Assembly (NCBI RefSeq): GCF_012641075.1
Contig: NZ_JAAXLJ010000010.1
Location: forward strand, 1 to 64,000
Reading direction: 5' to 3'
DNA from: Secundilactobacillus angelensis
GTDB taxonomy: Bacteria > Bacillota > Bacilli > Lactobacillales > Lactobacillaceae
Length of the DNA stretch: 64,000 bases
In this document: positions 11,886-26,062 of the stretch, one piece after another
Layout: every line of letters begins with the position of its first letter
Numbering within the stretch: the first letter of the stretch is position 1
The notes under the pieces: generated by a model
Seen by the model: only the letters and a program-made list of their open reading frames with translations
Told to the model about the DNA's origin: nothing
Database searches by the model: none
Translations under genes and position numbers: made by a program

Positions 11886-12962
11886 CTAATCAGCCATTGA
11901 TAAATGTAAAAATGATGCAATTTCACTACTTGGAATCGACTTGATCTTAGGTTGTCCGATGGCCGTCAGATAAACTAAATTCAAGTGTCCATGCCGGTTC
12001 TTCTTGTCGTTTTTGACCTTGTCTAACACAAGCGGTGAGGTCAATAACTCATCCGTTACCGGCAAACCAACAGCCGCAAAGCGATCGCGTAATTTTGCGG
12101 TGATGCCCTTTTCCGCTAAACCAGCGTTTTCAAACACTCGCATAATTGCTACGGTCCCAATGCTGACTGCTTCGCCATGACGCAGGCCGCCATCAGCCAA
12201 CGCTTCAACCGCGTGGCCAATCGTGTGCCCAAAGTTCAATAACTGACGAGTACCGCTTTCCGTTTCGTCAGCCATCACCACCGACGCCTTATAGTGAATC
12301 GAACGTGCGCTCAATTCTGGCGAGTGGATAATCAAATCAGCCGGACTATTAATGGTCTCGATGAGTTGCCAAAAGTCACCACCTTCCAGTGCGGCGGTCT
12401 TCACGATTTCGCCATAACCTTCAACCAAGTCACGCTGTTTCATGGTGGCTAAGGTATCCGGATCAACAATCACTAAATCTGGTTCGTAAAAAGCGCCAAT
12501 AATATTCTTAATGTTATCTAAATCAACTGCGGTTTTACCGCCTACTGAACTGTCCACCTGTGCCAACAATGATGTCGGTATTTGGATAAATGACAGTCCT
12601 CGCATATATGTGGCAGCTAGTAAACCAGCCAAATCACCAGTGACCCCGCCACCTAATGCGATAACACTATCGTCACGGTTAAAGGCATCGTTAGCCATTT
12701 GCCGTGCCAAATCAGCCAGAACTGTCAATGACTTTGAAGCTTCACCAGCTGGAAAAACGTAGCGGTGAACATCGAAGCCGGCCGACGTTAACGAATCAGT
12801 AACCTGTTTTTGATACAACGGTGCCACATTGTCATCGCTGACCAGCGCAATTTTTCGTGCTGACCACTGTTTTGAAACCAGTTCACCGACCCGTTTTAGC
12901 AGGCCGCGATCAATTAATACATCATACTTTGTCTCTGGTAACGTCACAGAAACAGTTGTCAT
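11886..12962 (-). CDS. aroB: 3-dehydroquinate synthase
   Basis: Shikimate pathway enzyme converting DAHP to 3-dehydroquinate; 358 aa, cytoplasmic, NAD- and metal-dependent. Motifs: NAD-binding GGGVTGDLAGLLAATYMRG, QIPTSLLAQVDSSVGGKTAVD, the metal ligand in NFGHTIGHAVEAL and RHGEAVSIG. It is the third gene of the aroE-aroF-aroB operon, starting 1 bp after the aroF stop, so translational coupling is likely. A full-length, ordinary member of the family. Confidence 0.96.
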   Translation of the reverse strand: MTTVSVTLPETKYDVLIDRGLLKRVGELVSKQWSARKIALVSDDNVAPLYQKQVTDSLTSAGFDVHRYVFPAGEASKSLTVLADLARQMANDAFNRDDSVIALGGGVTGDLAGLLAATYMRGLSFIQIPTSLLAQVDSSVGGKTAVDLDNIKNIIGAFYEPDLVIVDPDTLATMKQRDLVEGYGEIVKTAALEGGDFWQLIETINSPADLIIHSPELSARSIHYKASVVMADETESGTRQLLNFGHTIGHAVEALADGGLRHGEAVSIGTVAIMRVFENAGLAEKGITAKLRDRFAAVGLPVTDELLTSPLVLDKVKNDKKNRHGHLNLVYLTAIGQPKIKSIPSSEIASFLHLSMAD

Positions 12963-12963
12963 T

Positions 12964-13980
12964 CTAGCGCCCCGCTTCCGCTTGTTCTTGTGGCATTTCC
13001 GTTAATAATTCACGAATAGCAAATGCTTTGTCGGATAATTCTTTGAATTCGTTTGGCTTCAAAGCTTGCGGACCATCTGAAAGCGCGTGAGCCGGATCAT
13101 CATGGATTTCAACCACTAATCCCGAAGCACCCGCTGCAACACCAGCTAAAGCTAACGGTGTCACGAATTCAGTGTGACCTGAAGCATGGCTTGGGTCGAT
13201 GATCACTGGGTAATGGGTCAGCTTTTGAAGTACTGGCACAACGCCAACATCCAAAGTGTTCCGGGTGTATTTGTTATCGAATGTTCGGATACCGCGTTCA
13301 GCAATCATAATATTGTGGTTACCACCAGCAGCAATGTATTCAGAAGCGTTTAAAATGTCGTCAACCGTTGCTGACATCCCCCGCTTCAGCATGACAGGGA
13401 TATTGGTTTTACCAACTGCTTTTAATAGTGAGAAGTTTTGCATGTTACGGGCACCAATTTGGAAAATATCTGTGTATTTAGCAACCAGTTTAACGTGCTC
13501 GTCATCCATAACCTCGGTCAGAACATCCATGTTGTATTGGTCGGCAGCCTTGCGTAAGAACTTCAGGCCATCTTCGCCCAATCCTTGGAATGAGTATGGT
13601 GAGGTCCGTGGCTTGTATGCACCACCACGGAGAATTGTTGAACCATTGGCTTTGGCAACCGCAGCCATCTTCATCACGTGTTCTTCTGACTCAACGGAAC
13701 AAGGGCCAGCCATCATTGTAAAATTATCACCGCCGATGATGCTGTGCTTTGTTTTAATCACTGTATCTTCTGGATGAAACTCTCGGCTACCTTGAACTGC
13801 CTTTGGAACACTGTCGATTAATTCAACGGCGGCAACGCGTTCGCTATCCGATAAATCAGCGGCTGTAATACCTTGGACAGCTACACGATTATTATGGACA
13901 AAGACATCATTAGTATTTCCGAAGTGCTGCTGAAGTTCTGCAATAGTGGTTTGGTCGTCATTTTTTAATACAATAATCAT
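12964..13980 (-). CDS. aroF: 3-deoxy-7-phosphoheptulonate synthase, type I-beta
   Basis: First enzyme of the shikimate pathway (phosphoenolpyruvate plus erythrose-4-phosphate to DAHP), 338 aa. An N-terminal ferredoxin-like regulatory domain (about 1-75, MIIVLKNDDQTTIAEL...) precedes the barrel, which has MMAGPCSVES, LRGGAYKPRTSPYSFQGLG, LKRGMSATVDD and IIDPSHASGH. In this type the N-terminal domain can mediate feedback by aromatic amino acids. The ATG at 13980 follows GAGGATG; the GTG at 13995 overlaps the aroE stop and would also be possible. It is the second gene of the operon. Confidence 0.95.
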   Translation of the reverse strand: MIIVLKNDDQTTIAELQQHFGNTNDVFVHNNRVAVQGITAADLSDSERVAAVELIDSVPKAVQGSREFHPEDTVIKTKHSIIGGDNFTMMAGPCSVESEEHVMKMAAVAKANGSTILRGGAYKPRTSPYSFQGLGEDGLKFLRKAADQYNMDVLTEVMDDEHVKLVAKYTDIFQIGARNMQNFSLLKAVGKTNIPVMLKRGMSATVDDILNASEYIAAGGNHNIMIAERGIRTFDNKYTRNTLDVGVVPVLQKLTHYPVIIDPSHASGHTEFVTPLALAGVAAGASGLVVEIHDDPAHALSDGPQALKPNEFKELSDKAFAIRELLTEMPQEQAEAGR

Positions 13981-13991
13981 ATTTATCATCC

Positions 13992-14858
13992 TCACTTTTT
14001 GGTGTGTTCTAATTGTTGTGTAATTGCGTCTTTAACTTTTTCAATTGGCATTTGCTGATGTGTCCAGCGATTAAAGGAATCCGCTGCTTGCTGTACCAAC
14101 ATGCCAAGACCGTTCATCGTACGACATCCTTGCTGCTTAGCCTGGGCTAAGAATGGTGTTTCAAGCGGTGCATAGATTACATCGGCAACCATCTGTCCGG
14201 AATGAAGAACTTTCATTACCGGTGGTGAAACTGGGCTGCGTTTATCGTCTGCCATACCAAGATTAGTGGTATTGACAATAACGTCGGCCTCCTGAAGAAC
14301 TGCAGTCATTTGAGCCTCATCCTCATATGGCAATACTCGAATTCGATCCGACCAACCGGCTAATCGTTGCTTCAATTCATTAAACGTACTGTTTTGCCGC
14401 TTAAAGACGGTTACTTCAGCGCCTTCGTTGGCCGTTGCTAGGATAATTGCTCTACCGGCACCACCAGCTCCTAACACCGCTACTTGCTTACCTTTCACAT
14501 TGATCTGCTCATCCCGTAATGCATGAATGAACCCCTCACCGTCCGTACTGTCACCAACTAAATGACCCTCTTGGTTAATGACGGTGTTAACGGCCCCCAG
14601 TTGTTTAGCCACCGGAGTCAGCTCATCGAGAAATTCAATAATTTGCTGCTTATATGGCATCGACACGTTAATACCTAGAATCGGCAGCGCTCGCAGCGAT
14701 TGGACAGCGGTTTTGAACTGTGACTGTTCAACGTCGAATGCGAGGTAAACGCTGTTGATGCCTAAAGCTTGAAAACTCATATTGTGAATTAGCGGTGACA
14801 AACTGTGCCGCGCAGGCTTAGCGATAAAACCATATAAACTCGTATGTGCATCAACCAA
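13992..14858 (-). CDS. aroE: Shikimate dehydrogenase
   Basis: NADP-dependent reduction of 3-dehydroshikimate to shikimate; 288 aa. The substrate domain has SLSPLIHNMSF and VSMPYKQQIIEFLD with the catalytic Lys, and LGAVNTV. The Rossmann domain has VLGAGGAGRAIILA at about residue 127. Start is TTG at 14858, 7 nt after AAGGAGG; no better ATG is in frame. First gene of the aro operon, preceded by a leader of about 320 nt with a short aromatic-rich peptide and a terminator. Confidence 0.95.
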   Translation of the reverse strand: MVDAHTSLYGFIAKPARHSLSPLIHNMSFQALGINSVYLAFDVEQSQFKTAVQSLRALPILGINVSMPYKQQIIEFLDELTPVAKQLGAVNTVINQEGHLVGDSTDGEGFIHALRDEQINVKGKQVAVLGAGGAGRAIILATANEGAEVTVFKRQNSTFNELKQRLAGWSDRIRVLPYEDEAQMTAVLQEADVIVNTTNLGMADDKRSPVSPPVMKVLHSGQMVADVIYAPLETPFLAQAKQQGCRTMNGLGMLVQQAADSFNRWTHQQMPIEKVKDAITQQLEHTKK

Positions 14859-14884
14859 TTTGTCACCTCCTTAAAATTGTTAAT

Positions 14885-14939
14885 CAAAATAAAAACGTCT
14901 CGTAATGTCTTGTTTTCACAAAACACTGCGAGACGTTTT
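14885..14939 (-). terminator. Attenuator terminator in aro leader
   Basis: Perfect 11-bp stem AAAACGTCTCG / CGAGACGTTTT with a loop of about 26 nt and a T-run TTTTTATTTT on the minus strand, ending just before the aroE ribosome site. Its position inside the leader, before the first gene, fits transcription attenuation. Confidence 0.88.
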
Positions 14940-15079
14940 GACGTCGAATTTATAACAACGGAGTTTTCCGTGTCACACAGTGTTTTGAAAACTTTCTGTG
15001 TGACCGGCAAATGATGCTGAAAAACTATTGGCCGCACAGATTGCAGTGATGCGTGTCTGCAACCTGTCCGGTGTAGACA

Positions 15080-15145
15080 CTACATTGACCAATAGTAACT
15101 AAATCGATTTAATTGTCGGTTTAATGCTTTCGTTTTCAGAATCAT
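15080..15145 (-). CDS. aro leader peptide (21 aa, aromatic codons)
   Basis: Short open frame: ATG at 15145, 8 nt after AAAGGGAG, stop TAG at 15080-15082. The 21-residue product ends FSYYWSM, so Phe, Tyr, Tyr and Trp codons lie in a five-codon stretch with one Ser. The same codons form one arm of a leader stem. This is the classical design of an amino-acid leader peptide: stalling for lack of Phe, Tyr or Trp would change the RNA fold and allow read-through into aroE. Too short to have another obvious role. Confidence 0.8.
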   Translation of the reverse strand: MILKTKALNRQLNRFSYYWSM

Positions 15146-15184
15146 AATTGGAACTCCCTTTGCTGTTTTGATTTGTTGTATAAG

Positions 15185-15213
15185 ACAATAAACTATTAGA
15201 ATTATTCTGTCAA
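15185..15213 (-). promoter_or_regulatory. aro operon promoter
   Basis: Minus-strand -35 TTGACA (15213-15208), 17-bp spacer, -10 TATTGT (15190-15185). Predicted start near 15178, about 33 nt before the leader peptide ATG. The same -35/-10 pair is used by the trp promoter on the other strand. Confidence 0.82.
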
Positions 15214-15579: not shown

Positions 15580-15875
15580 CATACAAACCGATGATGTGGA
15601 GATCAAGATTATCGTGCACGTAAAGAGAGCCGCCGGAGCTGAGAGTGCGACCGAACGCAGGTAGTTAAATGGACCACAGAGGGTTCCCTTGAAAGATAGA
15701 TTGAGTACGGGGAAACGTACAGACATACGTCAGTTGTCGGAAATGTGATTACGCATTTCGCTAAGGGTGATGCGAGGGTGAAGTCCCTGCATCAAATTAA
15801 GGTGGCACCGCGGAATTTAAACTCCGTCCTTAACAAAACGCTATTTATAGCGCAAATGTTATGGGCGGAGTTTTT
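15580..15875 (+). promoter_or_regulatory. T-box riboswitch, tRNA-Trp type (copy 1, before trpE)
   Basis: T-box leader that lets transcription continue when uncharged tRNA binds. The conserved T-box AAGGTGGCACCGCG is at 15799-15812, followed by the terminator with arms AACTCCGTCC / GGGCGGAGTTTTT. In the stem I part, GTTAAATGGACCACAG contains TGG, the Trp specifier expected for a trp operon. The sequence from 15580 to 15894 is nearly identical, without gaps, to the copy at 18128-18442. Confidence 0.93.
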
Positions 15876-18127: not shown

Positions 18128-18425
18128 CATACAAACCAATGATGTGGAGATCAAGATTATCGTGCACGTAAAGAGAGTCGCCGGAGCTGAGAGTGCGACC
18201 GAACGCAGGTAATTAAATGGACCACAGAGGGTTCCTCTGAAAGATTACTTGAGTACGAGGAAACGTACAGACATACGTCAGTTGTCGGAAATGTGATTAC
18301 GCATTTCGCTAAGGGTGATGCGAGGGAGCAGTCCCTGCATCAAATTAAGGTGGCACCGCGGAATTTAAACTCCGTCCTTAACAAAACGCTATTTATAGCG
18401 CGAATGTTATGGGCGGAGTTTTTGT
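18128..18425 (+). promoter_or_regulatory. T-box riboswitch, tRNA-Trp type (copy 2, before trpD)
   Basis: Gap-free duplicate of the leader at 15580: by eye about a dozen substitutions in roughly 315 bp. The T-box AAGGTGGCACCGCG is at 18347-18360, the TGG specifier region TTAAATGGACCACAG and the terminator arms AACTCCGTCC / GGGCGGAGTTTTT are unchanged. Differences fall mostly in stem I and linker positions. Confidence 0.93.
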
Positions 18426-25863: not shown

Positions 25864-26062
25864 AAAAAAAGACGCCCCATCACTGGGACGTCCATACAGC
25901 CACTTAGCCGAAACTAAATGGGTTCTCAAAAATCCACATTTCCTTTGAACCAAGGCAGCCGCATATCCGGCGGTGTTACATTGCCTGCTGTGCAAAAGAA
26001 TCACCTAGTTGCTTGCGCAAACCGTTATTGCTAACGGCGTGATATTCTCGACTCATCGCATG
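25864..26062 (-). ncRNA. Candidate structured small RNA (about 200 nt)
   Basis: No credible gene is encoded here, but a good minus-strand promoter (26069-26097) and a strong terminator (stem GACGTCCCA / TGGGGCGTC, 25871-25892, plus T7) define a transcript of about 200 nt. Inside are CCGTTA-GCAA-TAACGG and TTGC-GCAA-GCAA hairpins (two GNRA loops) enclosed by ATCAC / GTGAT, then GGCA..CCGC..GCGG..TGCC and GGTTC / GAACC hairpins. The two ends pair through AGTCGAGA / TTTCGGCT and CATGCG / TGTATG. It does not look like 4.5S, RNase P or tmRNA. 6S RNA or a raiA-type RNA cannot be excluded. Confidence 0.6.

Follow-up and report, generated by a model that had tools for sequence, protein, structure and literature searches.

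A probable ribosome-mediated attenuator with an aromatic leader peptide upstream of the aroE-aroF-aroB operon of Secundilactobacillus angelensis

Some relatives of the leader reported here are already filed as an sRNA or as riboswitch candidates. Enterococcus sRNA 2410 (RF02863) is a 195-nt RNA that gave two transcripts on Northern blots; it is catalogued as an sRNA gene, and no role was assigned to it in the paper text that was searched (PMC5593968). The trpB motif (RF04312 / SRC-39-1), known from Firmicutes and Fusobacteria, consists of two hairpins, the second of which is a terminator, and precedes trpB and the genes of amino-acid ABC transporters. It was presented as a strong riboswitch candidate with >900 members, most often located before an amino-acid ABC transporter, and its authors did not exclude a classic attenuator (PMC11109978). 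In Streptococcus agalactiae, two elements upstream of paralogous ABC transporters were proposed as aromatic amino acid riboswitches, and such an element was also placed upstream of aroFBC-tyrA in Enterococcus faecium (PMC4448216). An earlier note, made from the sequence alone, held that classical leader-peptide attenuation is the rule for aromatic genes in Proteobacteria and that Firmicutes usually use T-boxes or TRAP. As a correction to this, Firmicutes do have known leader-peptide attenuators (S. aureus ilv, PMC5794164; his leaders, PMC9413887; hisS/hisZ, PMC2965389). No aromatic leader peptide of lactobacilli was found to be described in the open-access literature searched; this search did not extend to subscription journals, where a 2003 study dealt with aromatic regulation in low-GC Gram-positive bacteria.

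The window, by which we mean the whole 64,000-nt stretch of S. angelensis DNA that was analysed, carried on its minus strand an operon beginning with aroE (shikimate dehydrogenase, 13992-14858; TIGR00507, 253.8 bits, cut-off 200.2), followed by a gene for an aroF-type DAHP synthase (12964-13995; TIGR01361, 374.2 bits, cut-off 267.75) and aroB (3-dehydroquinate synthase, 11886-12962; TIGR01357, 353.7 bits, cut-off 305). The named close relatives of the window aroE were all from Secundilactobacillus. Ahead of these three genes, on the same strand, was a leader that ran from a promoter at 15213 to the aroE start at 14858 and contained the promoter, a ribosome site, an open reading frame (ORF) and three hairpins, ending in a terminator. 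The promoter (15185-15213) had a -35 element (TTGACA), a spacer of 17 nt and a -10 element (TATTGT); the -35 element was kept in 13 aligned Secundilactobacillus leaders. A Shine-Dalgarno sequence, AAGGGAG, was present at ~15154-15160, and ribosome-site-like sequence was found 5′ of the ORF in nearly all relatives. The leader ORF (MILKTKALNRQLNRFSYYWSM) spanned 15080-15145 including the stop, with 21 codons at 15145-15083 and a TAG at 15082-15080. Its control codons TAC TAT TGG (15089-15097) were preceded by TTT (15103-15101) and AGT (15100-15098). Nucleotides 15096-15089 (ACTATTGG) made up segment 1 of stem 1:2 and formed 8 perfect pairs with 15031-15024 (CCAATAGT), which is segment 2 (CCAAUAGU).

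Between and beyond these two arms lay segments that can pair in alternative ways. Segment a (GUGUCU, 15075-15080, minus strand as for all of the following) shared the last base of the stop codon and was complementary to segment c (AGACAC, 15053-15058). Segment b (ACAGGUUGC, 15059-15067) paired with 15044-15036 of segment d (15030-15044), giving helix 2, and 15039-15030 of segment d (CUGUGCGGCC) could pair with segment 3 (GGUCACACAG, 14996-15005). In the terminating (OFF) structure, segment 3 was paired with segment 4 (CAAAACACUGUGUGAC, 14972-14987) as hairpin 2 (15005-14996, GGTCACACAG, with 14980-14972); in the read-through (ON) structure, segment 3 was paired with d, and segment 4 with segment 5 (CAGUGUUUUG, 14919-14928). 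The antiterminator 4:5 was a perfect 10-bp helix of 14987-14978 (CAAAACACTG) with 14928-14919 (CAGTGTTTTG), the latter comprising the terminator 5′ arm and loop edge. The intrinsic terminator (14886-14939) was a hairpin at 14939-14892 followed by a T run, with a folding energy of -27.0 kcal/mol. The whole-leader fold was 6.5 sd below dinucleotide shuffles, which, together with the conservation of the ORF and stems across genera, indicates that the structure is more than chance. Claims of the earlier note that held here were the 21-codon frame ending FSYYWSM with a good ribosome site, the stem made from TAC TAT TGG, and the second hairpin and strong terminator before aroE. The other arm of that first stem had been placed at 15033-15024, two bases too early. 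An alternative fold, in which 14992-14978 of hairpin 2 was said to be nearly complementary to the terminator loop, also held, with its details corrected to the perfect 10-bp helix given above.

Other features of the leader were recorded as observations in their own right. A conserved UUUUCAGCAU at 15023-15010, present at the matching place in relatives ~10 nt past stem 1:2, had a spacing that resembles a hairpin-stabilised RNA polymerase pause site. The NR..NR codons (15121-15104) before the aromatic cluster were more conserved than a pure codon sensor would need, and a small hairpin inside the leader ORF is possible (AACCGA...AAUCGAUUU). Among the Arg codons of eight genes nearby, CGA was uncommon, at 4.0 per thousand against 10.1 each for CGU and CGG.

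The leader was present in 13 of the 15 genomes of the genus, and all 13 retrieved copies were upstream of aroE. The N-terminus of the encoded peptides was variable (MILKTKAL, MNLKMKAL, MTTIT, MTENIN) and included a 9-nt in-frame length change; despite this variation, NR..NRFSYYW and the stems were unchanged. One of the two genomes first scored as leaderless (G005) was shown by a later, more sensitive model to have a leader upstream of aroC, and no DAHP synthase was detected in either of the two (G005 and G008). A second member was found in the window's own genome (L186, G000:C85:37671-37773; peptide MHKIKPTQLNSRFYFWFFQY), upstream of a PRK07309-type aminotransferase gene. It was detected when the filters were relaxed, and its score alone was weak (29.4 bits, E 0.073); most genomes of the genus, however, had the peptide, gene and stems at the corresponding position.

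A covariance model built from 28 sequences matched 76 of 398 Lactobacillaceae genomes. The pattern across the family was an ATG with a ribosome site, 13-31 codons, an aromatic cluster (FSYYW, FYYYWF, YYYYWFF, FYSYW or YYSFW), a stop, hairpins and a terminator. The use of attenuation here, called notable in the earlier note, is not an isolated case: the element is common across Lactobacillaceae, and other families of Lactobacillales carry forms related to it. The ORF was open and carried an aromatic cluster in all 66 distinct leaders, which came from 14 Lactobacillaceae genera, and its length changes were in-frame. W was present in 64/66; exchanges within the cluster were mainly between F and Y, with S at some positions, and F/Y/W accounted for 92% of residues in its last five positions, with the caveat that the search models themselves contain the cluster codons. 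Counted from W, N occurred at -6 in 48/64 leaders and R at -5 in 38/64. One member from genus g6 (L095) had no Trp (YYYYQ), and its stem was preserved through changes in both arms. Candidates without an aromatic ORF and/or a fitting gene start were excluded as members (L136, which was a false match of the 28-sequence model, L185, L189, L267, L269 and L176). First-model matches on the opposite strand reflected hairpin self-complementarity and were excluded from the second alignment by E-value.

The genes behind the leader varied between genera. The operon was headed by aroE in g1 and g3, by the DAHP synthase gene in g14, g6, g2 and g32, by a transketolase gene followed by aro genes in g33, g38, g30, g16, g17 and g24, and by an aminotransferase gene followed by one for a 2-hydroxyacid dehydrogenase in g13. 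Transketolase provides the erythrose 4-phosphate that DAHP synthase uses as a substrate, so its position at the head of the operon fits. In g9, the leader (NYYFGYFQ) preceded a gene for a PTS_EIIC_2 (PF13303) membrane protein (L144:378-1463), which could conceivably be a transporter linked to aromatic amino acids. DAHP synthase was found in 46/48 genomes with the leader compared to 95/251 overall; these genomes are related and the significance is not to be taken literally.

The pairings were assessed in two alignments. In a MAFFT alignment made without structure (A2), the OFF helices were 94.9% paired and showed two-sided changes in 6 pairs, against 2.5 in shuffles. The ON helices a:c and d:3 were 100% paired in A2 compared to 26-54% for slid controls, and one pair of a:c had a two-sided change. 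In a wider alignment, 95.6% of cells were paired and 22/26 pairs had a two-sided change, compared with 12.1 +/- 1.3 in shuffles and between 4 and 11 in slid controls; this alignment was fitted to the OFF structure and is hence biased towards it. Two-sided changes were seen in 7/8 pairs of helix 1 (1:2) and 9/9 pairs of helix 2 (b:d). As 4:5 lay outside the covariation alignments, it was examined by duplex energy. The mean was -16.2 kcal/mol for cognate duplexes versus -11.0 kcal/mol for those swapped between genera, and the cognate duplex was the better by mean in 13/13 genera, with g38 a tie to the first decimal. The same swap test was weak for d:3 (8/12 genera). The OFF and ON helices, the ORF and its control codons, the conservation and covariation of these, and the identity of the downstream genes are shown here. 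The outcome that the earlier note had named as refuting its reading, namely stems kept while the frame or aromatic codons were lost, was checked, and the opposite was seen: every ORF was open and the stems covaried.

We conclude that the leader is very likely a transcription attenuator that works through the ribosome and controls the common aromatic (shikimate) pathway; the evidence is comparative only and there are no expression data. The leader-peptide reading of the earlier note is supported to this extent. Stalling of the ribosome, the switching driven by it, the amino acids that weigh most and the additional a:c / b:d step are inferred. In the proposed mechanism, polymerase would start at the promoter with a ribosome trailing on the leader ORF. 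Were charged tRNA-Phe, tRNA-Tyr or tRNA-Trp scarce, the ribosome would stall on UUU, UAC, UAU or UGG and cover segment 1, leaving segment a at the stop codon free; a:c would then form and hide b, so that d would be free to pair with 3, and 4 free to pair with 5. With 4:5 formed there would be no terminator and the operon would be transcribed. Were all three charged tRNAs plentiful, the ribosome would reach the stop codon, cover a and then depart; b:d, 1:2 and 3:4 would form, 5 would remain free, and transcription would end at the terminator. A reason for the extra a:c / b:d layer can be read from the sequence: segment a overlaps the stop, and would be free under a stalled ribosome and covered by a terminating one.

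This scheme was modelled at equilibrium by folding the RNA up to the terminator loop with everything upstream of the ribosome boundary removed. For the window leader, with a boundary of 12 nt from the P-site codon, 11.7 expected 4:5 pairs were predicted with the Trp codon in the A site, 1.5 with the ribosome at the stop and 0.0 without a ribosome. An equally sharp masked-fold switch was predicted for several g33 and g3 genomes. Among 70 leaders folded in this way, stalling was predicted to favour antitermination in 27 and the reverse in 4. The effect depended on the assumed footprint, being significant at 11-14 nt, weak at 15 (21 vs 12) and gone at 16. In g14, 4:5 dominated almost wherever the ribosome was placed; 3:4 dominated almost always in g38, g17 and g2. 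Equilibrium folding as a full account of the switch therefore fails in these four genera, and a kinetic step must be assumed there. As the effect fades at 15-16 nt and some genera have no equilibrium switch, masking is regarded as support and not as proof.

T-boxes were confirmed next to the operon, as the earlier note had claimed: one before trpE (15582-15834, plus strand; 81.7 bits, E 8e-18) and one before trpD (18130-18382, plus strand; 89.8 bits), each below the 93-bit gathering score. The two were near-identical, had a UGG (Trp) specifier as read by eye, and both lay within one trp gene cluster on the strand opposite to aroE. The aroE leader itself had no match to RF00230 (T-box); the two in the trp cluster were the only T-boxes found. 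Repeated (G/U)AG triplets of the TRAP type were not apparent in the leader by eye, without a formal scan. Weak Rfam matches within the leader (SSRC34, mir-9261 and others) were below gathering scores and were rejected as hairpin look-alikes. Elsewhere in the window, a Lacto-3 RNA (RF02840, 80.5 bits) was found at 25929-26060 on the minus strand; this conserved RNA is listed as an sRNA of Enterococcus.

Among other explanations, a metabolite riboswitch that senses an aromatic amino acid or one of its precursors, and in which the ORF would play no part, has in its favour that the leader is structured and covarying with a terminator and antiterminator, and that two independent groups took such elements for riboswitch candidates (PMC4448216; PMC11109978). 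Against it, the ORF is open with an aromatic cluster in 66/66 leaders and the first stem is made of those very codons; the sequence between helices is not conserved across genera, unlike a ligand pocket; and the authors of the trpB motif left a classic attenuator open. We consider a riboswitch very unlikely. It is likewise very improbable that the sensor is the conserved N-R-[FY]-x-Y-Y-W chain, stalling within the exit tunnel when it meets an aromatic metabolite in free form, in the way that TnaC responds to tryptophan. The conservation of N (48/64) and R (38/64) beyond the control codons would favour such a nascent-peptide sensor, but peptides without N-R exist (QAYYFW, VRFYSYW, TRYYYYW), the N-R codons lie in the possible small RNA hairpin, which could explain their conservation, and substitutions in the cluster preserve amino-acid class and not the exact residue. 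A sensor that responds to slow translation in general, or merely to the leader being translated, whichever amino acids are concerned, is all but ruled out, since the codons stay aromatic across 14 genera and the genes behind the leader belong almost throughout to the aromatic pathway, even though folding predictions were similar for any stall at -4 to -1 before W.

Returning to the attenuator, relatives were also found outside Lactobacillaceae. A model made only from Lactobacillaceae matched 9 genomes of other families among 395 Lactobacillales at E <= 0.01, where ~4 were expected by chance. All nine had an in-frame aromatic ORF (YFSYFR, YYFSYFR or FYYGYFR), and the genes behind these leaders were aroE, DAHP synthase or a TrpX-type binding protein. 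After extension with leaders of other families, the model matched 37/39 genomes of family f3 and 27/40 of f5, as well as 23/40 genomes of genus g43 when E was allowed to rise to 1, of which at least 2 were false. The peptides of other families contained Phe and Tyr, and rarely Trp. In one genome (G501:C17), two Phe/Tyr-type leaders (L161 and L173) were separated by ~1.3 kb, and each was followed by a different gene for a TrpX-type binding protein.

If the attenuator reading is true, many lactobacilli control the common trunk of the aromatic pathway through one switch that reads all three end products, and the T-boxes beside this trunk switch are specific for Trp and serve the Trp branch. Control of this kind would also account for the RNAs now filed as an sRNA or as riboswitch candidates, so that there would be no need to look for their missing targets or ligands, and leader codons would predict the substrates of uncharacterised transporters and aminotransferases. 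We lean, by a narrow margin, towards the joint claim that one attenuator family was inherited across Lactobacillales, with the shikimate pathway, erythrose 4-phosphate supply (transketolase), aromatic aminotransferases and TrpX-type transporters as targets, and with a sensor that was readjusted between Phe/Tyr (YYFSYFR) and, in Lactobacillaceae, Phe/Tyr/Trp (FSYYW, YYYYW); RF02863, the trpB motif in part or in full, and the 'aromatic riboswitches' of S. agalactiae would then be members of it and not riboswitches.

Comparison with RF02863 showed that its model matches many of the relatives outside Lactobacillaceae, from the end of the leader ORF to the terminator. Its consensus starts with UUaGCuacUUuaGauaGG, which is the end of an F-S-Y-F-R-stop reading frame, and peptides of this type are almost always without Trp. 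The RF02863 covariance model did not match the window leader or the Lactobacillaceae leaders tested. Shared architecture was seen in a QLN before the cluster and in GCCACAUAGAU in segment 3 of several Lactobacillaceae; common descent is suggested by this and by intermediate sequences, and has not been proved by a tree. The trpB motif overlapped two relatives (L191 and L274) at sub-threshold scores only (43.5 and 47.4 bits, threshold 59), and its model (RF04312) did not match the window leader. The S. agalactiae elements (gbs1262 and gbs2033) are possibly of the same kind as the aro leader, as suggested by position and gene context without sequence comparison.

Among Firmicutes transcription attenuators with a leader peptide, the S. 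aureus ilv leader (PMC5794164) and the his leaders of the B. cereus group, Peptostreptococcaceae and Erysipelotrichales (PMC9413887) serve other pathways and have unrelated peptides. The uORFC-13-1 upstream of aroF in Acholeplasma (PMC8632094) is likewise a Phe-containing uORF before a terminator and a DAHP synthase gene; unlike the aro leader, it is confined to Acholeplasma and environmental sequences, and no sequence comparison was made. In the his operon attenuator of E. coli and Salmonella, the control codons of the leader peptide also lie in the first stem of an alternating pairing chain, with three hairpins when transcription is terminated (here 1:2, 3:4 and 5:6) and shifted pairs for read-through (here d:3 and 4:5). 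The aro leader differs in its mixed F/Y/Y/W codons in place of those for one amino acid, in the additional, mutually exclusive pair a:c / b:d at the stop codon, and in its target, the common shikimate pathway. It had no Rfam match to proteobacterial amino-acid leader families and no detectable homology with the his attenuator. By sequence, the aro leader is not a member of a proteobacterial leader family. On comparative evidence only, we hold it very likely that it works as a classical attenuator, and as such it is a large, covarying addition to leader-peptide attenuation in Firmicutes, where T-boxes dominate.
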